Part shown: positions 8,960 through 64,000 of the stretch, one piece after another
How the letters are laid out: every line of letters begins with the position of its first letter
How positions within the stretch are numbered: the stretch's first letter is position 1
Source of the DNA: Luteolibacter flavescens
Lineage (GTDB): Bacteria > Verrucomicrobiota > Verrucomicrobiia > Verrucomicrobiales > Akkermansiaceae
DNA: 64,000 nt
Assembly: GCF_025950085.1 (NCBI RefSeq)
Contig: NZ_JAPDDS010000011.1
Span: forward strand, 124,001 to 188,000
Direction: 5' to 3'
Made by a program: the position numbers and the translations under genes
Notes under the pieces: model-generated
Database searches by the model: none
The model's input: only the letters and a program-made list of their open reading frames with translations
Told to the model about the DNA's origin: nothing

Positions 8960-9013
8960 TCCGCACGATTCCCTCCCTCCCGTTTCCCCCATCTCCACAT
9001 CCATCCCCTTCCC

Positions 9014-12000
9014 ATGAACCGATCACGAAAAATCCCCTGGCTGATCATTCTGGCAGCCGCTTCCTGCACCCAGCTCCACGCGCTGGAATCCATAGGCTGG
9101 AACTTCGACAACGGCCACGAGGCCTCGACAAATGACGGGCTGGTGCCGACCGATCTGGCCGGTGCCGGGCCCTATGCCCAGCTCAACTGGAACAACCACG
9201 TGGGTGGCGAGTATCAGAATCCCGGCACCGTTCCCTTCGCTCTGGTGGACAACAGCGGAAGCAGCACGGGCACCTCCGTCACCGCATGGACCCACAGCGA
9301 GAGCCATAGCTGGCACCACTCCTACGAGGGCGCAGATGCGAATGGCAGGATGATGAATGCTTTCGCGTGCCGGAATCCCTCGATCAAGTTTTCCAATGTC
9401 CCGGCGACCTATCAGGACTCCGGCTACTCGGTGGTCGTCTATTACGCCCAGACGGAGCTTTCGCGGGAATCGATGGTGAAAGTAAAAGGCTCGATCTCCG
9501 ACGACAAGGAGCGATCCGTGACCACGGGCATCCCGGGCAATGGCACCTCCTACTTCTCCATGGGATTCGTGGAGCAGGACGACAGCCACACCGGACCGTC
9601 GAACTACACGGTCATCTCCGGACTGAGCGATCCGGATTTCACGCTCTCGCTGGAGAGCGTGAATGGCGCGAACAACAACGGCATCACGGCCGTGCAGATC
9701 GTAAAGGAGAGCGGCGCACCTGCCGAGCCTGCGGGGAACTTCCCCTTCGACTTCATGTCGGAAACGGCGTTGAACCCGGTGCTCACGTGGGATCGCTCCC
9801 TGCGCGCGAATTCCTACCGGGTCTTTCTCTGGCTGGATGGCCAACCACGTCCCACGACGCCCACCGCCACGGTCACCTCTACCTCCTATACGGTCACGAC
9901 CCCGCTCGCTGCGAACACCTACTATCTCTGGTATGTGGTGGCGGTGGGCTCCGAGGGCAATGCGGAGAGCCCGGACTGGAGTTTTTCCACCGGCAGCGCG
10001 GCGGCACCGGCGGTCGCGGAGTTTCCCTTTCCGGTGGAGAATTCCACGAACGTTCCCGCGGACACCATCTTTGACTGGAACTACGCGGATCGCACCTCGA
10101 CCTATGAGTTCTACCTCTGGACAGATACGAAGCCGGCCACGCCCACCGCGGTGAGCCCGCAGATCGGCTACACGTTCCCCGCGATGTTGGAGCCATCCAC
10201 GACCTACCAGTGGCAGGTGGTGACGGTGAATTCGAACGGCCGTACCGAGGGCCCCGTGTGGTCCTTCACCACATCGGACTTCGTTCCGGTTGGCCGCCCC
10301 AGCGTCGGTTGGAACTACCACAACGACTACGACCCGAATGGCGTGCTCGAGGACTACGACGGCGCGGGAGCACCGGGCTACGGCCAGCGGAACTGGAACA
10401 ACCACCGCGGCTCCGGCCAAGGCCCCGGCGACGTGCCCTTCGCCATGATGGACAACGAGGGAAATCCCAGCGGCATCACGCTTTCAACCTGGATCCACCA
10501 TGGCGCGAGCAATAGCTGGCACCAAGACTATGCAGGCACGGACGCGAATGGCCGGCTGATGAATTCCTACGCCTGCCGGGATGCCGAGCTGACCTTCACG
10601 AATATCCCGCCATCCTACACGGACACCGGCTACTCAGTGGTCGTCTATTACGGCCAGGACACCAGCCGCTCCGCAACGCTTGCCCTCACCGGAAATGCGG
10701 ACGACGCCATCTCGCGCACCATCACCGCGGGCTCCTCGGCGAATGGCACCACGTGGGAGGCCGCAGGCTACGTGCAGGAAACCGGCAGCCATGGCGGCCC
10801 GAGCAACTACACGGTCTTCAGCGGGCTCAATGACGCGGCCTTCAGCCTGCGCCTGACGAGCATCGGCACCTCCGGCAACAACGGCTTCCATGCTGTGCAG
10901 ATCATCCAGGAAGAAGCGACGCCCTCCACACCTTCCCAGCCCGCACCTGCCAGCGGAGCTTCTGATCTCGCGAATACGCCGCACCTTTCATGGCGGTCAT
11001 CCCTTCGCGCCACGAGCTACCAGATCCACCTGTGGAAAGACGGCACCACCGAGCCCACGACGCCGACCGGCACTTCCTCGGTCGCGAGCTATGATCCGGC
11101 GTCGCCACTGGACTTCAGCAGCACCTATCACTGGCGGGTGGTCGCGCTGAATGACGCGGGCCCGACCTCGGGTCCCGTGTGGTCCTTCACCACCGGCGCA
11201 CAGGGCGCACCGGATGCCGCCGGGTCGCCATCGCCTGCGAGCGGAGCCACTGCCATCGCGCCCGGCACTTCCTTCACCTGGTCCACGGCAGCACGTGCTT
11301 CGCAGTATCGCTTCTACCTGTGGCCAGCCTCCGGCACCCGCCCGGCACAGCCGACGCATACATCCAGCGAACCCGGCTACACGCCGGCCAGCCCGCTGCA
11401 ACTTGGCACCGCCTACTCGTGGCAGGTCGTCACTTCGAATACCACCGGGACGACGGACGGTCCCGTCTGGACCTTCACGACCGGAGCCTCCCCTAGCGCG
11501 CCCAGCCAACCGTCGCCTGCGAATCTGGCTGCGAATGTTTCACGCGTGGTCACGCTTGATTGGGCGAACTCCACCGGAGCCACCTCCTATCGGGTCTTCC
11601 TCTGGAAGGCCGCCGACCCCGAGCCCGCGTCGCCCACCGCGACCGTCACCGCGAGCAACTGGTCCGGTGCCATCCAATTGGCAGGCGAAACAGCCTATCT
11701 CTGGAAGGTGGAAGCTGTGAACAGCTTCGGCACCTCGACGGGTCCGCAGTGGAGTTTCACCACAACGGCGTCCGCCGGCACCACCCTGGAGAGCATCGGC
11801 TGGAACTACGACAACGGCTTCGGCGGTTCGACCAATGACTCGCTCGCTCCCGAGGAGATCGCAGGAATTCCCGCCACCGCGCAATCGAACTGGAACAACC
11901 ATACCGGCAGTGGCCAAGGCTCAGGTGCGGTGCCGCTCAGCCTGACCGACAATTCCGGAGCGGCCACCGGAACCTCCGTGACCAATTGGACGAATATCGG

Positions 12001-46028: not shown

Positions 46029-46117
46029 GCCCTGAAAGCTGCCCCGTCGACCCAATGCGATCAAGTTCGAGCCCGTGGCCCCTCCATGCCGGCACACCTC
46101 AGCATCTCGTCCAATCT

Positions 46118-46134
46118 CCCGCCTCATCGGCGGG
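46118..46134. terminator. Short stem-loop before the ligase gene
   Basis: CCCGCC and GGCGGG pair around a 5-base loop, 26 bp before the ATG at 46160. The leader between them is AAACCGCAAACCAACCAACAACC. Confidence 0.4.
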
Positions 46135-46159
46135 CCAAACCGCAAACCAACCAACAACC

Positions 46160-47218
46160 ATGCCTACAACCCTGTATTACCGCGAAGGCGGCTCCGACAA
46201 AGTCTATCAGGCCGACATCGAACCGGCCGGTGATGGCTTCCAGGTCACCTTCGCCTACGGCCGGCGCGGAGCCACGCTCCAGACCGGCACCAAGACCCCG
46301 AAACCCGTCAGCCGGGCTGAAGCCGAATCGATCGCCGCGAAGCTCATCGCTTCCAAGCTCGCCAAAGGTTACACGCCTGCGGAGGACGGCACGCCCTACC
46401 ACGCCACCAGCAACGAAGGCCGTGACAGCGGAGTCCGCCCGCAACTCCTCAACCCGGTCGAAGAATGCGAGCTGCCCCGGCTGCTCGGCGACACCCGCCA
46501 GGTCCTCCAGGAAAAGCACGACGGCAAGCGGATGCTCGTCCGCAAGCTCGGCAAGGACGTCCACGGCATCAACCGCCGCGGGCTCATTGTCGCGCTGCCG
46601 CAGCCGATTGCCGAAGCCGCCTTGGGCATCCCCGTCGATCTCCTCATCGACGGCGAGGCCGTGGGAGATGTCCTCCACGCCTTCGACCTTCTCCAGGTCA
46701 AAGGCAACGATGTAAGGGATCGCTCGTACCTCGACCGCTTTGCCGGTCTGCTCCGCCAGCTCGACGCCAACAGCGCGATCCGACCGGTCAGCACCGTCGT
46801 CGAGCCGAAGGACAAACAGGCGATGTTCGACACCCTCCGCACGACCGGGGCCGAGGGCGTCGTCTTCAAAGACATGCACAGCCACTTCAAGCCCGGCCGC
46901 CCGAACTCGGGAGGGCCGCATTTGAAGTTCAAGTTCGTCACCACCGCGTCCTTCATCGTCGGAGCGATCAACAACCGTCGCAGCGTCGCGCTCGTCCTCC
47001 TCGACGGAGACGAACGCGTGCCCGCCGGCAACGTCACCATCCCACCTGATCACGACATCCCGGCACCGGGCGACACCGTGGAGGTGAGGTTCCTCTACGC
47101 CTTCCCCGAAAGCGGCTGCATCTACCAGCCGGTCTATCGCGGAAGGCGCGATGACATCGACCCCGCCGACTGCCACGTCCGGCAGCTCAATTACAAGGAC
47201 CAGAGCATCGCCGCCTGA
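46160..47218 (+). CDS. ATP-dependent DNA ligase with N-terminal WGR-like domain, 352 aa
   Basis: Residues 1-75 resemble a WGR domain (YYREGGSDKVYQADI, FAYGRRGATLQTG; the usual W is Y). The ligase core has motif I EKHDGKR with adenylated K119, motif III-like LLIDGEAV (162-169), motif IV EGVVFKD (232-238) and motif V LKFKFV (255-260). A short OB-like C-terminus follows. WGR domains in PARP and other proteins bind nicked DNA, so the fusion fits nick sealing or repair of the element. The frame is open upstream, but ATG 46160 follows the A/C-rich leader typical here. Confidence 0.85.
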   Translation: MPTTLYYREGGSDKVYQADIEPAGDGFQVTFAYGRRGATLQTGTKTPKPVSRAEAESIAAKLIASKLAKGYTPAEDGTPYHATSNEGRDSGVRPQLLNPVEECELPRLLGDTRQVLQEKHDGKRMLVRKLGKDVHGINRRGLIVALPQPIAEAALGIPVDLLIDGEAVGDVLHAFDLLQVKGNDVRDRSYLDRFAGLLRQLDANSAIRPVSTVVEPKDKQAMFDTLRTTGAEGVVFKDMHSHFKPGRPNSGGPHLKFKFVTTASFIVGAINNRRSVALVLLDGDERVPAGNVTIPPDHDIPAPGDTVEVRFLYAFPESGCIYQPVYRGRRDDIDPADCHVRQLNYKDQSIAA

Positions 47219-50914: not shown

Positions 50915-51736
50915 TCAGACCAATGGAGCGGAGTAGGACTTCAGTTCCAGCGCTTGGGAAAACGTCCCAATTCTGATGCGCCGCTCGGTCAACGAAGGTA
51001 CCGGGCCGTGGACGACATCGGGAAACCCGTCATGTGTCACTCCATCCAGATCGCGACCGGTGAGATGTTTTCGCGCACCTCCCCACTGTTTGAAGAAGAA
51101 TGGCACCCCCGCGTCCAAACAGAGGTCCCGGATCCGCGAAACCCAGCTCTTCTGGATCGGCCGCGCACCGGGCCCACTCTCGCCGCCAACGATGACCCAA
51201 TCGATGCCGCTCAAATCAAAGTCCCTCAGGTCCTCCAGCAGTGGCTCCACCGAGAGGAACTTCACGCCAACATTGGCAGCACGGAGCATCTCCAACCTGG
51301 GCAGGCCATGCTTCCGGTCTTCCACGCTCACGCCCCACCAGATGTGCTTCATCCGGGCCAGATTCTTCAGTGGGCCGTCAAGCGACTCCAGAAGGCGCTG
51401 AGGCCGCTTGGTGAGCACCTGATAGACGTGCCAATCCGCGGCCTCCATGACCTGGCCAACCAGGCCGATGTAGTCGTCCGGAACGCCCTCGTGAAAGAGA
51501 TCGCTCATCGAGTTGACGAAGATCTTCTTTGGCGAAGGCCATCGCAAGGGTGCATCCAGCTTGTCGGGGACAAGCCGCAGGTCGAACCCGAACTCGAACG
51601 GATGGCCCGGAATTCCCCGCCATCGCTCGGCGAAGGTCTTGGCGTAGCAATTCTTGCAGCCGGGGCTGATCTTGGTGCAACCCCGAACCGGGTTCCAGGT
51701 TGCATTCGTCCACTCGATCTTTGATTGATCGCTCAT
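50915..51736 (-). CDS. DUF5131 (phage Gp37/Gp68-like) three-Cys protein, 273 aa
   Basis: The start IEWTNATWNPVRGCTKISPGC is diagnostic of DUF5131, with C20, C27 and C30 in CTKISPGCKNCYA, a radical-SAM-like metal-binding arrangement. Further conserved blocks are KKIFVNSMSDLFHEGVP, WHVYQVLTKRPQRL, WWGVSVEDRK and DWVIVGGESGPGAR. Biochemistry is unknown to me. Relatives in phages and mobile DNA are often next to a TcmP gene; no TcmP is seen here. It lies 26 bp before the small gene ending at 51763 on the same strand. Confidence 0.85.
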   Translation of the reverse strand: MSDQSKIEWTNATWNPVRGCTKISPGCKNCYAKTFAERWRGIPGHPFEFGFDLRLVPDKLDAPLRWPSPKKIFVNSMSDLFHEGVPDDYIGLVGQVMEAADWHVYQVLTKRPQRLLESLDGPLKNLARMKHIWWGVSVEDRKHGLPRLEMLRAANVGVKFLSVEPLLEDLRDFDLSGIDWVIVGGESGPGARPIQKSWVSRIRDLCLDAGVPFFFKQWGGARKHLTGRDLDGVTHDGFPDVVHGPVPSLTERRIRIGTFSQALELKSYSAPLV

Positions 51737-55748: not shown

Positions 55749-56504
55749 TTACTCAGAGCGCGCCAAGTCAACCACCAGGTCCGGCACGAAATCCGGATTC
55801 CGGTGATCCAAGTAGCCGTGCGGATTCGCAATGACCCTCGTACTTCCGATCCGGTAGTCCTGCGAGTGGTGGATGTGCCCGTGGATCCACAATCGAGGTC
55901 CATCGGACTCGATCCACTCGTCCAAGCGCGACGCATAGGCACAGCTCACCGGATCGGAACCGCGATCACCGGGCAAAGAACGCGCCGAGGGAGCATGATG
56001 CGTGACGACCACGGAACGCCGGGGATCCCCCGTTGCCAGGAACTCCCTGATTCTCCTGACGGACTCGAGGTGCCAAGCCCGCGTATCGCTAGGCTTGATC
56101 CGCCGGTAGGTCACCGAGTGCCGGATTCGCCGGTAGTCGTTCATCACCATGGCCTCGATCGCACCGATCCGCGCATCACCGAAAAGCGCGAGGTCGGTCC
56201 ACAGCGTGCAGCCGAAAAAACGCCATCCGTTCAACTCGACCACCTCGTTCTCGATCACGTGGATCTTCGTGTCCGCGGCATCCGCCTTGAGCTTCGCCAA
56301 CAGCCCCGGGATTTTCTCGCCGTAGAACTCATGGTTCCCCGCGATATAGATCACCGTCTGGTCCGGGAACTCCTCCCAGATCCAGGCGAGGCCGTTGCGC
56401 TTGATGTGGACGTCGCCCGCAAGCACCACGAGATCGGCATCGACCTCGGGCAACGAGACCGGGCCGAATTCGAGGTGCAGGTCGCTGAGGATGCGGAGGA
56501 TCAT
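55749..56504 (-). CDS. Calcineurin-like metallophosphoesterase, 251 aa
   Basis: All five metal-site motifs are present in order: SDLHLEF (D-x-H), LAGDVHIK (G-D-x-H, the usual x-x-x of GDxxD altered), AGNHEFYG (G-N-H-E), VVTHHAPSA, and IHGHIHHS (G-H-x-H). The enzyme hydrolyses phosphoester bonds; targets in the family range from nucleotides to nucleic acids. It lies 45 bp downstream of the helicase on the same strand and is likely co-transcribed with it and the HTH gene. No signal peptide, so cytoplasmic. Confidence 0.85.
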   Translation of the reverse strand: MILRILSDLHLEFGPVSLPEVDADLVVLAGDVHIKRNGLAWIWEEFPDQTVIYIAGNHEFYGEKIPGLLAKLKADAADTKIHVIENEVVELNGWRFFGCTLWTDLALFGDARIGAIEAMVMNDYRRIRHSVTYRRIKPSDTRAWHLESVRRIREFLATGDPRRSVVVTHHAPSARSLPGDRGSDPVSCAYASRLDEWIESDGPRLWIHGHIHHSQDYRIGSTRVIANPHGYLDHRNPDFVPDLVVDLARSE

Positions 56505-56549
56505 GGTGAATGTTGGGGATGATTCGGTCTCGCGCCGCCCCCCCCGGTT

Positions 56550-58892
56550 TCAACGTCGTCGAAGAAAGCCCACAATTTGAAGGGCCATGTCCTTCCGCAC
56601 ACCAGCCTCGACCAGCCTCTCCTTGGAGCATTCCCGCAGCAGTTCCACGCTCGAGATCCCGGCCTCTTCAAGCCGGCGTATCGTCCCTTGAGCCGGCGAT
56701 GGCTTGCCGCTACCCAGATGGCTAGTCCTGAGGCGCAAGAAGACCGGCCCTAAGGGACTACACCAGGATACCAGATTCATCAGTCGAAGCGACATTCCCT
56801 GCATCCGCTGGAAAGCCCGCTTGACCAGTAGAATCCGCTCGTCGCCCGCGGTGCACTCCTGTTTGAGGTGGAAAAAGAAGCAGCGGATGTCCCACAGGTT
56901 TCGCATCGCGCCGAGGAGGAACAACCGGTCATCCCTCCACGGCTCCTGGATCTCATCCAGGTCACTGATCTTCCATCGCCTCTCCAGATCCGCAGGCAAG
57001 GCACCATGTGCCCGCTGCCACAGAACGATGGTGCGCAGCATAGCTTGGTAGCCCGCCTTCCGCGATGCCTCATCTTTGGCAGTGACCTTCCAACCATGGT
57101 CGATTCTCAGTGAGCCAAAGATCTCGGATGCCTTGGAAAAACCCTTCTGCCCCCGGATCCAGCTCTGAAACAACACCGACTTCGTCTCATCGCGGCTCGT
57201 CCAGTCATCCACCTGAGCCGCCATCGCATCGCTGAAAGGCTTCCGCAGCACCGGTCGGTTGGTCATCAACTCGGTGAGGAGCAGGAGGTCCAGCATGCCA
57301 AAGCCGAGCAGCATCCCGTCCTGCTCATCGATACTCAAAAGGTCCCGGGTCAGCTGCGCCACCCCTGCGGCCGTCTTGAGGGGAAGACTACCACGCACCG
57401 CGGCTTGGCCAAGGCGGGTCGAAACCCACTCATCCTCGTCCTCGAATGCCAGCAGGTTGGAGCACGATCCCAGCCACCTCAATGTCGGAGCACAGTCTCC
57501 GACGACTTCAGCACCGTTCATCGTGCTGGAGATGAACTTCTCCACCTCGGCGGTTTTGAACTTCGCTTCGGGCCGCCTGGCGAGGAACGACAGCACCGCT
57601 TTGGCGAGGGGGGGCTCACCGCCACTGCCCGGACTGCTTTTGGCGGCTTGAAGGAACACCGACCGCAAAGTCGGCACCTGATTTCTCTCAATCTGGCCGC
57701 GAAGCTCTTCCACGCCCCTCGCCTCCCCCGGTTTCAGAATCAAATAGGCCTGCCCGGGCCGGCTACCACGCCCCGCCCGCCCGGTCATCTGCTGCAATGC
57801 GCCGACCGGAAGTGGCTCGCCGGGTCCAAAGCTGAGGTCCCGGACGATGACATGGGTGGCCGGCAAGTTCACCCCCATCGCCAAGGCCGCCGTGCTCACC
57901 ACGCAGCGAGTGCTTCCCTCCTGAACCTGACGCCTCACGCCGGCTTTGGTCGCGCTGCTCATCCGGGAATGATAGCAGGCCGCTCCTTTCGGCCCGCAAA
58001 GCTCACCCAGCTCGGACTGCAAGACCCTCGCCAGCGCTCCTGCCCACGCGGTCTGGTAGACGAAAATCAGCACTGAATGGGTGGGATCTTCCAGAATCGT
58101 CCGGACCTTCTGGACCACGACCGACTGGATATCCTCTTGGGGCTCGATCTGGCAGATCGACCTCCGCAGCGCCGGCCTGCGGACCTCGGATTGCACCGCA
58201 TCACAGGGATCCAACCATCGCACCAGCGGGGCCACCTTCCCCAGCGTCGCCGACAGCAGCACGAGGCGCGGCAGCACGCGCAGGGTGCGGAAGGACGTCA
58301 CCACGTATTCCAGCGATGCACCCCGGACGGCATCCGCCAGCAAGTGCGCTTCATCCACACAAACGACTCGGAACGACGAGATCCAGTCGTCGAAATCGGG
58401 ATTCCTCAGGATCGCTTCGATCCGCTCCGGCGTGGCGATCACGATCTCCCCCTCCTCTGGCGGCGGGCTCTGCATGGTCTCCTCGTTGAGGCGATAGTCG
58501 CCGGTGGAGATGCTCACTCCGATTTTTCGCCCCAGCACCTCCTGCAGCTCTGCGGTCAGTGACTTCAGTTCGTCGAATTTCTCCTGCGCGATCGCCCGGA
58601 GCGGTTCGAGCAGCAGCACCCGCCCTCCCGACAACGCGCCCCGGAGCAGCGCCAGGTAGGCGAGCAGCGACTTGCCTGAATTCGTTGGTCCCGCGATCAG
58701 CAAGTTCCGCCGAGAGGTCAGCAGTTGGCCATCCCGGATCGCCTTGACCTGGATGTCCGACGGCAAGCTATCCGGAACCAGGTGCCCGACCATCCGGTCC
58801 CATGGCTCACCCAATGAGAGATCCGCCCACCGGATCACCGGACCACCGGTCTCGGTGGCATCTCCCACGGACTCCAGCGGGATCTCAATCAT
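56550..58892 (-). CDS. Ski2/Hel308-like DEAH helicase, 780 aa
   Basis: Superfamily 2 motifs are in order: Walker A AGPTNSGKS (K74), LLLEPLRA, ATPERIEA, DEAH at 180-183, LVLLSATLG, ALAMGVNLP and QMTGRAGRGSRPGQ. The last 70 residues (RRLEEAGISSVELLRECSKERLVEAGVRKDMALQIVGFL) are a helix-hairpin-helix-like DNA-binding end, as in Hel308/Ski2-type enzymes. I chose ATG 58892, which overlaps the upstream HTH gene by 8 bp; longer frames overlap that gene. Divergent from a second, non-identical helicase, so the two probably act in one system. Confidence 0.85.
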   Translation of the reverse strand: MIEIPLESVGDATETGGPVIRWADLSLGEPWDRMVGHLVPDSLPSDIQVKAIRDGQLLTSRRNLLIAGPTNSGKSLLAYLALLRGALSGGRVLLLEPLRAIAQEKFDELKSLTAELQEVLGRKIGVSISTGDYRLNEETMQSPPPEEGEIVIATPERIEAILRNPDFDDWISSFRVVCVDEAHLLADAVRGASLEYVVTSFRTLRVLPRLVLLSATLGKVAPLVRWLDPCDAVQSEVRRPALRRSICQIEPQEDIQSVVVQKVRTILEDPTHSVLIFVYQTAWAGALARVLQSELGELCGPKGAACYHSRMSSATKAGVRRQVQEGSTRCVVSTAALAMGVNLPATHVIVRDLSFGPGEPLPVGALQQMTGRAGRGSRPGQAYLILKPGEARGVEELRGQIERNQVPTLRSVFLQAAKSSPGSGGEPPLAKAVLSFLARRPEAKFKTAEVEKFISSTMNGAEVVGDCAPTLRWLGSCSNLLAFEDEDEWVSTRLGQAAVRGSLPLKTAAGVAQLTRDLLSIDEQDGMLLGFGMLDLLLLTELMTNRPVLRKPFSDAMAAQVDDWTSRDETKSVLFQSWIRGQKGFSKASEIFGSLRIDHGWKVTAKDEASRKAGYQAMLRTIVLWQRAHGALPADLERRWKISDLDEIQEPWRDDRLFLLGAMRNLWDIRCFFFHLKQECTAGDERILLVKRAFQRMQGMSLRLMNLVSWCSPLGPVFLRLRTSHLGSGKPSPAQGTIRRLEEAGISSVELLRECSKERLVEAGVRKDMALQIVGFLRRR

Positions 58893-59469
58893 CGTAGCGG
58901 AGGATTTTCCGGAGCGCCGGGTAGATCTTCGACATCTCGGCGGCGGGCAGATCCTGCACCCGGCTCGCCACCCACTGCCGTTGGGCAAATCCACTCAGGG
59001 GCTCCATCGCGAGGAACAAAGGCACGATCGTCAGGTCGAGGTCCTGATCGATTCCGTGGAGCTTCAGCAGCAGCTTGAGGTTCTTCTTCCTTGGTTTGAT
59101 CTCGCCGCTCGCCCATCGGGAAAACTGGGGCGGGGTGATGCCGATGGCCTTGGCGATGGTCTCCTTCTGTCCGTGCGGAATCGAGTCCACGAGGTAGCGA
59201 AGGTTCTCCCGGAAGATCGAGCTGTCCCGCGTGTAGAAGGGCACGGACACCAGCTCCTCCGCCTCTACCTTGAAGACCTCGCCCAAGACCCGAACCTCGT
59301 CAGGCTTCGCCTCCACCCCGGCCAGCAGGCCATGCGACCTGCTGAATCCAAGGTAGGTCCGCGTGAGTTTGTTCAGCTCCACCGACCACAGGGACGGGTC
59401 CGGGTGCCGCTGGCGCATCAGCCACCGGAGGTTCAAGCAGCACTGGTTGAGATCGGTGAGTCCTCGCAC
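58885..59469 (-). CDS. HTH regulator of the helicase cluster, 194 aa
   Basis: A XRE-type HTH is clear at about 105-150 (KETIAKAIGITPPQFSRWASGEIKPRKKNLKLLLKLHGI). The N-terminal half (LNKLTRTYLGFSRSHGLL ... VRVLGEVFKVEAEELV) looks like a second, diverged HTH/dimerisation unit. It starts 26 bp from a 24-bp dyad (59495-59518) in the intergenic space between the two helicase operons, so it likely represses both directions. Its stop overlaps the helicase start. Confidence 0.72.
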   Translation of the reverse strand: MRGLTDLNQCCLNLRWLMRQRHPDPSLWSVELNKLTRTYLGFSRSHGLLAGVEAKPDEVRVLGEVFKVEAEELVSVPFYTRDSSIFRENLRYLVDSIPHGQKETIAKAIGITPPQFSRWASGEIKPRKKNLKLLLKLHGIDQDLDLTIVPLFLAMEPLSGFAQRQWVASRVQDLPAAEMSKIYPALRKILRYDD

Positions 59470-59494
59470 GGCTTGCTTTTAGACTGCCAAAAGC

Positions 59495-59518
59495 GCAAGA
59501 ATCAAACTTAATTCTTGC
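59495..59518. promoter_or_regulatory. Dyad operator in the divergent helicase promoter
   Basis: GCAAGAAT and ATTCTTGC flank eight bases in the 85-bp AT-rich gap between the HTH gene (59469) and the SWIM helicase gene (59555). A perfect 8-bp inverted repeat here is the expected binding site for the adjacent XRE-type regulator. Confidence 0.6.
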
Positions 59519-59554
59519 TTCCATTGAAATGAAGTGTTCGCTTGAACTCGTCAA

Positions 59555-61915
59555 ATGAACACCGCGCCAGCACCTCATTTGAACCCCGCCCAACAGCGGA
59601 TGATCGACCATGGCGTTCTGGACTCCGGCTTTAGCACCGTCCTGCAAATGCCCACTGGCTCGGGCAAAACCTGGCTCGCCCGGGAAGCCATCCGGTCCTC
59701 GCTGAGCCGGGGATTCCGTGCCGTCTACCTCAGCCCGCTCCGTGCTTTGGCAGATGAGCTTTCTACGTCCTGGACCTCCGTGTTTCCAGACTCTCCGGTC
59801 GGAGTCTTCACCGGCGACTACGGCAAGCCCGGCAAGGCCCTGCCGGTCTCCTACTTCGATGCCCGGGTGATGATCATGACCCCCGAGCGGCTCGATGCGT
59901 GCACACGAGCCTGGCGATCTCACTGGGCCTGGATCCCGGAGGTCGACTGGCTTGTCGTGGACGAGCTGCACCTGCTCGGCGACGGCCAGCGGGGAGCCCG
60001 CCTCGAAGGAACCATCTCCCGCTTCCGCCGCCTTAATCCCTTCTGCCGGGTCCTCGGCCTTTCAGCAACCCTCGGCAACCGCGGGCAACTGGCCGACTGG
60101 CTCGACGGGGTCGAGCTTGGGAGCGATTGGCGGCAAGTCCCGCTCGAATGGAAAGTGGTGCGCTATCGGAAGCCGGACGAGAAACCCGGCCTCCTCGCCA
60201 CGGAAGTAACCCGCATCCGGGATGCAGGCGGTCAGAGTCTTGTCTTCGTCCAAAGCCGCCGCCGCTGCGAACACCTCGCCAAATGGCTTCGGGATCAGGG
60301 ACTCCAAGCCGACCATCACCACGCCGGCCTCACCCACGATTCGCGTCGCAAGGTGGAATGGGGCTTCAGGGAAAGTGCAACACAGGTTCTCGTCGCCACC
60401 GGAACCCTTGAAATGGGAATCAATCTGCCCGCCCGGCAAGTGATCCTTTACGACCTTCAGGGCTTCGATGGACAGGGATTCACTCCCTTGGCGGTCAACA
60501 CCGTCTGGCAGCGGGCCGGCAGGGCGGGACGTCCCGGTCTCGACCCGGTGGGAGAAGCAGTGCTCTTTGCCCCCTCTTGGGAGAAGTCCGCCGACCGCTA
60601 TGCGCTCGGGCGATTCGAACCGATAATCTCCGGATTGACCGAACCCCAGGCCATGGCCGAGCAGATCCTCGCGGAGGTCCACTCCGGTCTCGCCCGCACC
60701 ACTGACCAGTTGGAACGGGTCTTCCACAGCTCACTCGCCGCGTTTCAAGGCAAGACCCTCAAGATCCGCCGGATGGTCACCGAGATGCTGGATGCCGGGA
60801 TGCTCCGCGAGGAAGAGCGCGAAACACGCGTCATCCTCCACGCCACTCCCCTCGGGCGCATCGCGTGCCGCCATCAGCTCCGCCCTGCCACTGTCCTCCA
60901 CCTCCGCCGCCTGCTGGAGGGAAAGGCCGCCCTGACGGACTTCGACCTGCTTCTCGCCTGTGCCAGCGCTCCCGACTGCGAACTTGTCCTTCCCATGGAC
61001 TTCGAGGATTTGGAGAACCTCGCTGAAGAGCTGACCCGCCAGACATCACGCCTTCTCGCAGACCCGGGACACAACCATCTTTCCATCGGAGACAAACGAC
61101 TCCTCGCCGCCCTCAAGACCTGCATCGTACTCTGGCGTTGGACGGTGCTTGGCGACGAGGAAATGGTGGCCGAGGAAGACGGGATCTACCCCTTTGAGAT
61201 CTCCCGCCTCATTGAGTCGATGGACCGGTTGCTCTTGGCATCCGCTTCGATCCAGAAGCTCATCGACACCCCTCGCCTCCCCGAAGGCGTCGAGCCGCCC
61301 GTCATGGATAAGCAGCCGAAGTCGGCAAGTCTGCTCCGCATCGAACTCCTGCGCCAGAAGGTGCTGAACGGCATTGATGGACCCGCAGCATCCCTGACCT
61401 TGATCGATGGCATCGGCTCAGCTTGGGCTCGCAAACTCTCCGCAGGAGGTATCCCCGACCTTGCCGCCCTGGCTCGGTCCTCCGTGGAAACACTCACAGC
61501 GCTTCCAGGACTGTCCGCCAAGCGGGCCACCAAGTGGATTTCAGAAGCATCCTCCGCCGACCTCCAGGTACCTCCGCCCGTCGATGCCCCCCGGGTCCCG
61601 ACCTTCCCTCCCGACGAGGACATGCCCGTCGACCCCTACCGCCTGCGCCGAGCCCTCGACCTCAAGGTCGCCGGTTATGGCAGGAACCGTTGGTCGGTCG
61701 CGGGCGGATCGGAGCCACGCCTCGTCCAACTTGAAGGCGGAGTCTTCTCGTGCAACTGCCCCGACCATGCCAAGGGCCGGGACTGCAAGCACCTCATCGC
61801 CGTGCGGTTGCACCGGAAAGATCCCGAGCTCTGCCGCCTGGTTGCCTCCTTCCGCTTCGGCCAGATGCCCTCCCATCCCTACCTCGACCTCTTCCTACTC
61901 TGGTTCCAACGATGA
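59555..61915 (+). CDS. Ski2/Lhr-like helicase with C-terminal SWIM zinc finger, 786 aa
   Basis: SF2 motifs: MPTGSGKTW (K38), LSPLRALADEL, MTPERLDA, VVDELHLLGD (DELH in place of DEAH, D136), LGLSATLG, TGTLEMGINLPA and WQRAGRAGRPG. A helix-hairpin-helix pair follows (LTLIDGIGSAWARKLSAGGI; LTALPGLSAKRATKWI, about 610-665). The C-terminus has a SWIM finger FSCNCPDHAKGRDCKHLIAV (C-x-C-x(n)-C-x-H), a nucleic-acid/protein-binding module unusual in such a helicase. The TGT-like gene overlaps by 4 bp, so the two are coupled. Confidence 0.87.
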   Translation: MNTAPAPHLNPAQQRMIDHGVLDSGFSTVLQMPTGSGKTWLAREAIRSSLSRGFRAVYLSPLRALADELSTSWTSVFPDSPVGVFTGDYGKPGKALPVSYFDARVMIMTPERLDACTRAWRSHWAWIPEVDWLVVDELHLLGDGQRGARLEGTISRFRRLNPFCRVLGLSATLGNRGQLADWLDGVELGSDWRQVPLEWKVVRYRKPDEKPGLLATEVTRIRDAGGQSLVFVQSRRRCEHLAKWLRDQGLQADHHHAGLTHDSRRKVEWGFRESATQVLVATGTLEMGINLPARQVILYDLQGFDGQGFTPLAVNTVWQRAGRAGRPGLDPVGEAVLFAPSWEKSADRYALGRFEPIISGLTEPQAMAEQILAEVHSGLARTTDQLERVFHSSLAAFQGKTLKIRRMVTEMLDAGMLREEERETRVILHATPLGRIACRHQLRPATVLHLRRLLEGKAALTDFDLLLACASAPDCELVLPMDFEDLENLAEELTRQTSRLLADPGHNHLSIGDKRLLAALKTCIVLWRWTVLGDEEMVAEEDGIYPFEISRLIESMDRLLLASASIQKLIDTPRLPEGVEPPVMDKQPKSASLLRIELLRQKVLNGIDGPAASLTLIDGIGSAWARKLSAGGIPDLAALARSSVETLTALPGLSAKRATKWISEASSADLQVPPPVDAPRVPTFPPDEDMPVDPYRLRRALDLKVAGYGRNRWSVAGGSEPRLVQLEGGVFSCNCPDHAKGRDCKHLIAVRLHRKDPELCRLVASFRFGQMPSHPYLDLFLLWFQR

Positions 61916-62793
61916 ATGCCAAAATCCTCGACACCCCTTCCGGTCCGATCCGGTTTCCTGCCTACGTGCCTGTCACCACCTTTGGTGGCAAGTATCCCCT
62001 CGATGGGCTGATCCAACCCTACCTTCCCCGACTCGCCCCAGCATTGATGGTTAGCCACCACTATGCCCGACAGATGCGGGAGAAACCCCGCCTGCCCGTC
62101 ATGATCGACTCCGGCGGCTTCGCAGCCCTGTTCGAAGGCAGCAAGGTCCTTGCCCGGAAGGGTCTGGGAATTCTCGAAATCCATCTGGGCGAAGAACCCG
62201 AGCTACTCACCCCATGGGATGTCCTGGAGTTTCAGGAACAACATGCCGACATCGCCTTCACCCTCGACTTCCCCATCCCTCCGAACCTGCCGATTCGCGA
62301 CGCCAGACGTCGCCAGAAGCTCACTATCGCAAACGCCTGCTGGGCGCTTGAGAATCGCCGGCGACGCGAGATGAGGCTCTTCGCCTGCATCCAGGCGTGG
62401 GATTCGGAAAGCGCGCGCGACTGCGCCCGTCAACTCGCGGAGCGTCCCTTTGATGGCTTCGCGATCGGAGGGCTCGTGCCTCGTGCTTGGGACTGGGAGC
62501 TCCTTTCGTCCATCGTCCTCAGCGTGAGGAACGAAGTTGGCTCGCGCCCCCTCCACATCTTCGGCCTCGGAAAGCCGGAACTCGCCGCCAAGCTCTTCGA
62601 ACTCGGCGTCGACTCGGTCGACTCAAGCTCCTACGTCAAAGCGGCTGCCGACGGAGTTTCCTGGGCAACAGGTTCAAAAGTTCCAGACCCGAGCGTGTCG
62701 GACCGACTCGCTCTAGCCCTATCCAATCTGGCTCTGGCGACAGGTTCCACTCTGCCACTATCCGTGGGAAAGCTCTTCCCAACGAGGTGCTAG
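61912..62793 (+). CDS. Short tRNA-guanine-transglycosylase-like (DpdA/archaeal-TGT-like) protein, 293 aa
   Basis: The catalytic DSGGF loop is present (VMIDSGGFAAL, D66). FDGFAIGGLVPR corresponds to the GGL(A) substrate loop of TGT enzymes. HIFGLGKPELAAKLFELGVDSVDSSSYVKAA matches the second catalytic segment, with D-S-S-S-Y as in archaeal TGT (FDSxSY) rather than bacterial queuine TGT (FDCVxPTR). No CxCx2C...H zinc site is seen. TGT-fold enzymes swap guanine for a 7-deazaguanine base in tRNA or, for DpdA, in DNA. Coupling to a helicase suggests a nucleic acid other than ordinary tRNA; this is inference. No preQ0 genes are in the window. Confidence 0.72.
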   Translation: MNAKILDTPSGPIRFPAYVPVTTFGGKYPLDGLIQPYLPRLAPALMVSHHYARQMREKPRLPVMIDSGGFAALFEGSKVLARKGLGILEIHLGEEPELLTPWDVLEFQEQHADIAFTLDFPIPPNLPIRDARRRQKLTIANACWALENRRRREMRLFACIQAWDSESARDCARQLAERPFDGFAIGGLVPRAWDWELLSSIVLSVRNEVGSRPLHIFGLGKPELAAKLFELGVDSVDSSSYVKAAADGVSWATGSKVPDPSVSDRLALALSNLALATGSTLPLSVGKLFPTRC

Positions 62794-62864: not shown

Positions 62865-64000
62865 ATGGCGAAAATCCTCAACCTTCCACTCCTTCAGGCC
62901 ACCTTGGCCGAGAAGGGGCTGAGCCAGACCGCCCTATCGGAGGCACTTGGCCTCAGCAAGGCGGCGGTATCCAAGTGGTTCAAGGGTAAGTCCTTCCCTC
63001 GTCCGCAAGAGCTTCTCAAGCTCGGCAAACTTTTGGGACTTGGATTCAAGGATCTGGTCCAGAGCGGCCCGGCTGCCGCCGAACCGCTGGTTGCCTTCCG
63101 AAAGCGGGCCGGAACGGTTACCAAGGACGAACACACTTCGCGTGCTCAGGACATGGGGCGACTTCTGGCCCCGGTGGTCACCCATTTGCCGTTCGACAAC
63201 TTCGTGGCTCCTGTCCGTCTAAAAGACCCTCAGCTGGACTACGACTACATCCAGCAGCTGGTGACCAAAGTCAGGTTGGAACTCGACCTGGACCCGGTGA
63301 AGCCAATCGATTTCGAGAACCTGATCGGCAAGTTCAACGAGCTGCAGGCGGTCCTGGTACCCGTGATGTGGGGTAAGAAATCCCGCCACGAAAACGCGCT
63401 CCACATTTACCTGCCGGATTCGAGGACGACCTGGGTGTTTCTCAACCTCGATAGTGAGCTACACGATTTCAAGTTCTGGATGGCTCACGAACTCGGCCAC
63501 GTCTTGAGCGTCAGCCTGCTCGAAGGAAACGAGATCGAGCGGGCCGAAGATTTTGCGGACGCTTTTGCGGGAGCACTCCTGTTCCCCGAAAGAGCCGCCG
63601 CCGAATCGCTCGACGAGTATTCCCGTAAAAAGACGGACGCCACCAGGATTCAGGCGATCCTTCGCATTGCGAAGGATTACCTGATTTCACCGTTCTCCGT
63701 CTATCGGGAGATCCAGCGCTATTGCGAGCACCACGAGCTGCCCTTCGCCACGGTGAAACAGCCGTCGCTCCACGCTGCAATCAGCCAGTTTAACAAGCGC
63801 TACCAGACGATCCGGGAGATGCTCTTCGACGGTGATGTGCCATCGGCCGATCACTACATGAGGATCAGCAACGAGACCTTTAGCACTCCGGTTTTCAAGG
63901 CGCTTGGCGACTACGTGAAGGCAACCGAGGTATCCCCCTCGGTGCTCAGCCGCATGCTCGATGTTCCCCTGTGGGATGCCCGTGAGCTGAAGCAAGCCCT
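62865..64000 (+). CDS. XRE-HTH plus ImmA/IrrE-type metallopeptidase, cut by window end
   Basis: An N-terminal Cro/C1 HTH (LAEKGLSQTALSEALGLSKAAVSKWFKGKSFPRPQELLKL, residues 13-52) is followed by an ImmA/IrrE-type peptidase domain with FKFWMAHELGHVL (H208-E209-H212) and ERAEDFADAFAGALLFP supplying the third ligand. Such proteins cleave repressors in mobile elements or sense damage. The frame is open to the last base (at least 378 codons), so the C-terminus is missing. It starts 71 bp after the TGT-like gene, on the same strand, and may control this part of the element. Confidence 0.85.
   Translation, partial: MAKILNLPLLQATLAEKGLSQTALSEALGLSKAAVSKWFKGKSFPRPQELLKLGKLLGLGFKDLVQSGPAAAEPLVAFRKRAGTVTKDEHTSRAQDMGRLLAPVVTHLPFDNFVAPVRLKDPQLDYDYIQQLVTKVRLELDLDPVKPIDFENLIGKFNELQAVLVPVMWGKKSRHENALHIYLPDSRTTWVFLNLDSELHDFKFWMAHELGHVLSVSLLEGNEIERAEDFADAFAGALLFPERAAAESLDEYSRKKTDATRIQAILRIAKDYLISPFSVYREIQRYCEHHELPFATVKQPSLHAAISQFNKRYQTIREMLFDGDVPSADHYMRISNETFSTPVFKALGDYVKATEVSPSVLSRMLDVPLWDARELKQA

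Follow-up and report, generated by a model that had tools for sequence, protein, structure and literature searches.

We analysed a stretch of 64,000 nucleotides (nt), here called the window, of the Luteolibacter flavescens contig NZ_JAPDDS010000011.1, in which two helicase genes, a probable regulator gene and a gene for a short protein with the tRNA-guanine transglycosylase (TGT) fold lie together; they are named HelA, HTH (helix-turn-helix), HelB and TGT-s. An original prediction had taken this group for a modification or defence system akin to the dpd cluster, and its open reading frames were confirmed on the strands and at the coordinates that it gave. HelA (56550..58892, minus strand) encodes a Ski2/Hel308-like superfamily 2 (SF2) helicase of 780 amino acids (aa) with Pfam DEAD and Helicase_C matches. 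HTH (58885..59469, minus strand) is Cro/C1-like, with a Pfam HTH_3 match of 1.7e-4, just under the cut-off, and overlaps HelA by 8 bp. It had rightly been counted to the minus arm, but HTH, not HelA, is the first gene of that arm, and HelA lies behind it; HTH homologues with 24-42% identity stand within the same cluster at 4/4 other HelA loci. The predicted model of the HTH protein, with a predicted local distance difference test score (pLDDT) of 60.2, was too poor for use. On the plus strand, HelB (59555..61915) encodes a Hel308-like helicase of 786 aa with an HHH_5 domain and a C-terminal SWIM zinc finger, and TGT-s (61912..62793; 293 aa, PF01702 1.5e-22) starts 4 bp upstream of the end of HelB, an overlap that had been predicted.

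Between the HTH start at 59469 and the HelB start at 59555 lies a divergent intergenic region of 85 bp (59470..59554), which had been described as a shared promoter holding a perfect dyad. The gap has this length, and it contains the inverted repeat GCAAGAATCAA/TTAATTCTTGC (59495-59518), whose 8-nt arms are perfect but whose 11-nt arms are 91% complementary. Among 2000 dinucleotide-shuffled versions of the gap, 3.35% also had perfect arms of 8 nt, so that the dyad by itself is just mildly unusual; it is possibly an operator, a putative assignment that is weak on its own.

Both helicases were placed in SF2 by Pfam DEAD (HelA 2.1e-23, HelB 4.3e-23). The best NCBIfam model of each was the Hel308-type PRK02362, with 172 and 339.5 bits respectively, far under the cut-off of 887. 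A helix-hairpin-helix at the C-terminus of HelA was matched weakly (HHH_5, 0.19), and HHH_5 of HelB was matched at 2.5e-12 (Pfam). The Pfam SWIM match of HelB was weak as well (0.044, under the cut-off), but its four ligands, Cys-x-Cys-x8-Cys-x-His (C733/C735/C744/H746), are invariant in 7/7 aligned homologues, in favour of the finger first noticed in the window. HelA is 40-45% identical over about 765-785 aa to its counterparts in the single-cell genome SCGC AAA164-E04, the metagenome-assembled genome (MAG) L035 and two cyanobacterial plasmids. The PADLOC model of DpdF matched HelA (50 bits) and HelB (76 bits) because of the common helicase core; HamB, SngC and BrxHI matched likewise, and the NCBI DpdF model gave HelA 26.5 of 550 bits. 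DUF1998 was absent from the Pfam results of HelA and HelB. Since Dpd members of the YprA family are reported, in the accessible part of the literature, to have lost this domain, the placement of both helicases outside that family rests mainly on their best model.

The island beyond the window

The contig is 216771 bases long and continues for 28.8 kb past the window, whose last base is 188000; this remainder holds most parts of the island. TGT-s is followed, in this order, by an ImmA/IrrE-HTH gene, a gene with a weak PIN match, a PLD-domain protein, two unknowns, PD-(D/E)XK, a small unknown and a UvrD-type helicase, and then by a 610-aa unknown, HerA, NurA, a DpdA fusion, a 1884-aa sacsin/NOV-type protein, QueD, QueE, QueC and QueF. 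The suspected relationship to dpd was thereby strengthened, with DpdA, QueD/E/C/F and nucleases on the same contig. The set is not compact, however, as it had appeared: a larger island extends past position 64000, and components which seemed to be missing (DpdA, QueD/E/C/F, HerA, NurA, UvrD and PD-(D/E)XK) follow there.

DpdA of the island (699 aa) scored 431.9 bits with the NCBI DpdA model NF041059, against a cut-off of 200, and 1.1e-119 with that of PADLOC. Its N-terminal part is weakly DpdC-like (PADLOC DpdC 2.6e-6; DUF6884 27.6 bits, cut-off 30). HerA was recognised by DUF87 (2.9e-17), and NurA by a match barely over the cut-off. QueC and QueF pass their NCBI cut-offs. For QueD, Pfam PTPS gave a passing score and TIGR03367 did not; QueE belongs to the radical-SAM proteins, and its best NCBI families, although their cut-offs were not reached, are those for QueE. 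Contig C23 carries QueF and QueC once more, so the pair of the island is an additional one.

The active site and descent of TGT-s

The AlphaFold2 model of TGT-s (pLDDT 86.6) aligned with 2ash over 268 residues (Z 29.1, root-mean-square deviation 2.3), and TGT-s is thus, by sequence and predicted fold, a TGT, as first supposed. It passes the superfamily model TIGR00449 (82.7 bits, cut-off 47.6) and fails the equivalog cut-offs of TIGR00430 (51.1 of 306.75 bits) and TIGR00432 (65.9 of 350) as well as the NCBI DpdA model (44.9 of 200). The original prediction had called for a comparison with DpdA and the archaeosine enzyme. Among solved structures the best match of the TGT-s sequence profile was the archaeosine tRNA TGT 1iq8 (2.3e-17), and DpdA 7ui4 was found too (4.9e-13). 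In a tree that also held canonical TGTs, DpdA and sequences from haloarchaea, nine TGT-s formed one branch (support 99/97) apart from both tRNA TGT and DpdA. Nine housekeeping-type tRNA TGTs were included in this tree; L013 and L028 (trim motif not found) and one haloarchaeal large TGT were left out. By TGT-s the nearest named relative is an Akkermansiaceae MAG, at 74%.

In 9/9 TGT-s no variation was seen in the 14 columns checked, which comprise the active site and its neighbours; the copy of Deinococcus gobiensis, left out of this comparison, has the DSGG and DSSS motifs in its own sequence. Two relatives, G416:C9:511527-512372 and G592:C231:1345-2187, carry T in place of D66 and S in place of D237, and thus lack both aspartates that we take, as we do the roles of the other active-site residues, from the TGT literature to be catalytic. 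They come from the phylum of the genome of L035, where 3/395 genomes matched at 1e-50, the third being that of L035 itself. No match to the island helicases was found in the 40 kb and 14 kb around them, and they are candidate pseudo-enzymes as judged from their sequences. As the same columns are kept in 9/9 TGT-s and changed in these helicase-free relatives, selection seems to have kept the copies linked to a helicase catalytic. When both changed relatives were included in the tree, all eleven formed one branch (95/92), in which a clade of the nine TGT-s alone was neither supported nor rejected (p-AU 0.28).

The affinity to 1iq8 raises the possibility that TGT-s modifies tRNA or another RNA, in the manner of an archaeosine TGT, that the helicases open structured RNA, and that the neighbouring genes are chance companions in a defence island. 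The structural matches of TGT-s, among those listed, are tRNA TGTs, and DpdA 7ui4 was absent from the best 50 in each of two lists, an absence which excludes nothing; moreover, Ski2-like helicases include members acting on RNA, a point that also weighs against the reading proposed below. On the other hand, the genome already has a canonical-type TGT (contig C1), and TGT-s is shorter (293 aa versus 375-390 aa for bacterial TGT chains among the matches listed), is without the C-terminal CxCxxC zinc motif in all nine aligned copies and does not belong to the tRNA TGT branch. The highest scores of HelA and HelB are those with Hel308-type DNA helicase models, albeit under the cut-offs, and a DpdA-type gene, HerA and NurA accompany TGT-s in five loci from three labelled groups. 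We therefore consider an RNA substrate quite unlikely.

Recurrence in other genomes and on plasmids

Proteins of the window and the island, 22 in number, were compared with six neighbourhoods at a threshold of 1e-5, and a scan of genome contigs with TGT-s yielded four loci. Ten TGT-s genes were counted, from the window, L033, SCGC AAA164-E04, L035, Nostoc sp. NIES-3756, Picosynechococcus, Nostoc sp. MS1 and three Deinococcus; L036, a 3.4-kb contig with 45 residues matched, was left out. HelB adjoins or is fused to nine of the ten, and HelA is found at five (the contig of L033 ends inside HelB). A DpdA-type gene is on record in 5/10 carriers, that of L035 being of a divergent kind, and 6/10 carriers are plasmids. 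The original prediction had named two outcomes that would speak against it, namely that the helicases rarely occur with the TGT-like gene, or that the latter groups with housekeeping tRNA TGTs. The set recurs and TGT-s stands apart from the nine compared, so neither outcome arose.

In SCGC AAA164-E04, a Verrucomicrobia single-cell genome, HelA, HTH, HelB, TGT-s, PD-(D/E)XK, UvrD, HerA, NurA, DpdA and QueD/E/C/F are all present in the same gene order, with a relative of the 610-aa unknown and without the sacsin gene; preQ0 genes, for which a search had been suggested, thus accompany the set here as on the contig of the window. HerA (89%) and NurA (80%) of the two islands are far more alike than HelA (45%), HelB (63%) and DpdA (64-66%), so the islands look mosaic, with HerA-NurA recently exchanged (L046:3519-5372, L034:18656-20545). 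The Proteobacteria-labelled MAG L035 carries HelA, HTH, HelB, TGT-s, PD-(D/E)XK, UvrD, HerA and NurA as the core and, near its contig end, a divergent TGT-DUF6884 protein, with no que match. Two plasmids matched HelA at E 1e-20, those of Nostoc sp. NIES-3756 and Picosynechococcus sp. PCC 73109. On both, the fused DpdA, HTH, HelB, TGT-s and HelA stand side by side, and HerA and NurA are present too; the Picosynechococcus plasmid additionally has UvrD and PD-(D/E)XK, with no que genes. In Deinococcus ficus and D. grandis TGT-s is followed by HelB with a 4-bp overlap, and in D. gobiensis a 430-aa frame runs from TGT-s into the first part of HelB and then stops, a truncated fusion.

A chance assembly of unrelated genes could appeal to the TGT-s of Nostoc sp. 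MS1, which stands without helicases, and to the four plasmids with TGT-s and without DpdA. Nevertheless, it is very improbable indeed, as the same genes repeatedly occur together, in Verrucomicrobia, on plasmids of cyanobacteria and Deinococcus and in a Proteobacteria-labelled MAG, and as HelA (1/387 genomes, at 1e-60) and full TGT-s (1/288) were found in samples of the phylum of the window in the same single genome, its own. Absences in such searches are not strict, since just some candidates were scored per genome (two for HelA among the matches listed, up to five for TGT-s relatives in the phylum of the genome of L035). Altogether 265/288 genomes of the sample from the phylum of the window matched TGT-s, with 49.1 bits for the best match outside the genome of the window; most matching frames, which were not individually checked, have the length of a canonical TGT.

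The plasmid carriers suggest a further explanation, an anti-restriction device by which plasmids and islands mark their own DNA to escape host restriction while the nucleases serve replication or transfer. Plasmids make up 6/10 of the TGT-s carriers, and that of Nostoc NIES-3756 is typed as conjugative and encodes ArdA; phage 7-deazaguanines, according to the accessible part of one source, shield from restriction (PMC6884629). However, HerA and NurA stand with the modification genes in five loci and UvrD-PD-(D/E)XK in 4/5, and neither pair would be needed for self-protection alone, for which reason we think this explanation unlikely.

The que genes bear on yet another possibility, that two marks are made: DpdA would insert preQ0, which the DpdC-like domain would convert to 2'-deoxy-7-amido-7-deazaguanosine (dADG), while a second base, preQ1 or a formamidine produced by the island QueF, would be inserted by TGT-s. 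DpdA with its DpdC-like part, a TGT-s with an intact active site and QueF do occur together in the island of the window and in SCGC AAA164-E04. In contrast, both cyanobacterial plasmids have two TGTs and no match to the island que genes at 1e-5 (Picosynechococcus whole, Nostoc 69 of 76 kb). Furthermore, the island QueF (L046:17085-17480) is without the ETKSLK stretch kept in the C23 and SCGC copies, which presumably binds NADPH. We consider two marks improbable. As judged from its sequence, the product of the island QueF may not be preQ1; a QueF relative, in the part of the report available, can produce a formamidine instead of preQ1 (PMC5485725).

DpdB and the second TGT

Canonical dpd systems contain DpdB, and its role for DpdA is, to our knowledge, not settled. 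In the accessible portions of a recent source it assists DpdA and is suggested to be dispensable in certain clusters (PMC12839542). We built a DpdB profile (A6) from five rows, taken from W08, W09, W10 and W14, and searched whole records at E 0.01. Nine records matched (W08-W10, W14-W19), of which five (W15-W19) are independent controls, since the other four had supplied the rows. No match was found in the genome of the window (G000, 97.5% complete), in G289, W02, W03, W07, W11-W13, W20 or W21, or in the TGT-s plasmids without DpdA (W01, W04-W06), and none within the 39 kb of the island of the window that were read.

We then compared 24 DpdA-type neighbourhoods, scanned with six TGT profiles, several of them built from these loci, and the DpdB profile. 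DpdB was found in 0/10 neighbourhoods with two TGTs and in 12/14 with one (Fisher 6.7e-5); when restricted to plasmid records from the DpdA search, the counts were 0/4 and 12/14 (p 0.0049). The latter test covered 18 of 20 matches, as H55 and H57, which match just the DUF6884 part and had no TGT scan, were left out. These p values are guides only, because the loci are interrelated, the TGT-s searches bias their choice and the neighbourhoods are of uneven size (11 to 69 kb). A Pfam TGT search agreed for Nostoc, Picosynechococcus, Paenibacillus and D. taeanensis, with at least two places each, and for most one-TGT records; in Natronococcus it gave two copies of the short kind, and in Methylobacterium none despite an annotated DpdA.

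The second TGTs are of at least three kinds. Besides TGT-s, short second TGTs lie near a DpdA-type gene in Paenibacillus (L050:17043-17966), D. taeanensis (L052:7492-8478) and haloarchaeal plasmids (L042:8986-10020); behind each of these three come an unknown gene and an ATPase. The ATPase is KAP- or DpdH-like in Paenibacillus and D. taeanensis and BrxC/D-like in Natronosalvus and Haloarcula; for Natronococcus no ATPase is listed in the corresponding place.

Proposed function

Collectively, these findings suggested that the locus probably belongs to an island for modification and restriction, akin to dpd, where DpdB is replaced by a second, catalytic TGT and a helicase. That the substrate is DNA and the purpose defence we infer from the presence of DpdA and of the que and nuclease genes. 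The island would make preQ0 or a derivative using its own QueD/E/C/F, and DpdA, with its DpdC-like fusion, and TGT-s would swap guanine for a 7-deazaguanine base in the DNA of the cell itself. The original prediction had seen foreign or element nucleic acid as the target, whereas by analogy with dpd the mark is to be expected on self DNA. TGT-s, which appears catalytically competent, would be physically coupled to HelB, usually together with HelA, and perform the job of DpdB by ATP-driven strand opening or delivery. HerA-NurA and UvrD-PD-(D/E)XK are the likely nuclease arm, restricting DNA without the mark.

Several observations weigh against this proposal. TGT-s and HelB (one truncated) lie on three Deinococcus plasmids without DpdA, and the catalytic-looking TGT-s of Nostoc sp. 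MS1, also on a plasmid without DpdA, has neither helicase in the 19 kb read; with four such plasmids, one also without helicases, TGT-s may work alone and need not partner DpdA. UvrD and PD-(D/E)XK were not found on the Nostoc NIES-3756 plasmid (69 of 76 kb read), and the contig of L033 has just fragments of the DpdA fusion (88 residues) and of the PD-(D/E)XK gene. A weak DpdB-like match of 24 bits lies elsewhere in the genome of L035, and two one-TGT loci (Acetobacter, Methylorubrum) are without DpdB too. The 24 loci are interrelated, and 6/10 two-TGT loci were found solely via TGT-s searches. Finally, Pfam TGT alone gives one place, not two, in Natronosalvus and Haloarcula, whose large TGT was called with a profile from haloarchaeal genes, that of Natronosalvus included.

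The different kinds of second TGT allow a broader, tentative suggestion, which we hold possible but would not yet expect to be true. DpdA-type base exchange might generally be two-subunit and NTPase-driven, with DpdB as one solution that was replaced several times by a second TGT and an NTPase: TGT-s with HelB/HelA, the short TGT of haloarchaea next to an ATPase like BrxC/D, and the TGT of Paenibacillus and D. taeanensis next to one resembling KAP or DpdH. On this view, TGT-s with HelB would be the smallest DNA transglycosylase coupled to a helicase, in one case even within a single reading frame. If a second TGT and a helicase do replace DpdB, the two kinds of system become directly comparable, and TGT-s coupled to HelB might serve as a tool for writing 7-deazaguanines into DNA. 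The island would also add a predicted bacterial, partly plasmid-borne layout of modification and restriction.

Comparison with known systems

Thiaville 2016, Yuan 2018 and Gedara 2023 are reportedly the founding papers on dpd (dpdA-K). As far as the accessible parts of later sources describe it (PMC11888242, PMC12839542), Dpd has, like the island, a cluster in which a DpdA passing the NCBI model stands together with helicases, nucleases, preQ0 genes and a part that is DpdC-like (DUF6884), though weakly so in the island. The island differs in that no DpdB was found, the DpdC-like part is fused to DpdA, a second short TGT is present, the helicases are the Hel308-like HelA and HelB, and HerA, NurA and UvrD-PD-(D/E)XK are included. 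DpdD-K gave no confident match among the island proteins scanned, not all of which were run against all libraries. BRIGADE resembles the island as well, being a hybrid akin to Dpd that combines 7-deazaguanine genes with two helicases, but in the accessible text its helicases are YprA-like and reported solely from halophilic archaea, whereas those of the island are Hel308-like and bacterial (PMC12458937). The haloarchaeal plasmids of our analysis have two TGT-type genes, as the island does.

BREX-related capture (BRC) systems, in the part of the source available (PMC12839542), likewise combine a TGT with a HerA-type translocase, but the island has two TGTs and que genes, and no Pfam match to the BRC parts PglZ, DUF6079, DUF4007 and GNAT was found among the island proteins scanned. 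A precedent for two TGT-fold subunits acting together is the eukaryotic tRNA TGT heterodimer, named QTRT1-QTRT2 in its PDB entries. QTRT2 is non-catalytic, whereas TGT-s keeps all active-site columns checked. The accessible portions of the open-access literature on Dpd, BRIGADE and BRC, whose scope did not extend to the founding dpd papers, describe neither a helicase-coupled second TGT nor an exclusion of DpdB, and the layout was not present as a system among the PADLOC matches.

Other features

A metallophosphoesterase gene (55749-56504) had been counted to the set and was rejected, with no match at 1e-5 in the six compared loci. The ImmA/IrrE-HTH gene, which starts at 62865 (62865-63998 in the window) and runs past the window end, was likewise rejected as a core gene; of the six loci, solely the contig of L033 has a match (85% identical). 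On the whole of that contig (L071), TGT-s and the terminal part of HelB lie beside QueC, QueD and QueE, with just the fragments of the DpdA fusion and of PD-(D/E)XK noted above, possibly a decaying island. Between TGT-s and PD-(D/E)XK (L045:10028-15532), the weak PIN gene, the 832-aa PLD gene and two unknowns had a match in 0/6 loci and are thus probably inserted cargo. The 1884-aa sacsin/NOV-type protein (L046:8683-14337), TmtA-like by PADLOC (1.1e-104) and placed between DpdA and QueD, was also found in 0/6 loci. A fast-evolving 'X' protein of 566-704 aa stands near HerA; its likeness between loci is weak, and Pfam matched none of its four copies that were scanned.

On the Nostoc MS1 plasmid (L037) TGT-s (8977-9912) lies beside dnaB, with MT-A70, AlkB, cytosine methyltransferase and glycosyltransferase genes nearby, possibly, to judge by these genes, another DNA-modification setting. 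A scan of viral contigs with the TGT-s alignment gave 20 pattern matches and 0 relatives; among phage records, P0003 gave three matches at 24.5-24.9% identity and P0007 one DpdA relative. Upstream of the cluster, the window encodes a WGR-domain DNA ligase (46055-47218) and a DUF5131 protein (50915-51736).

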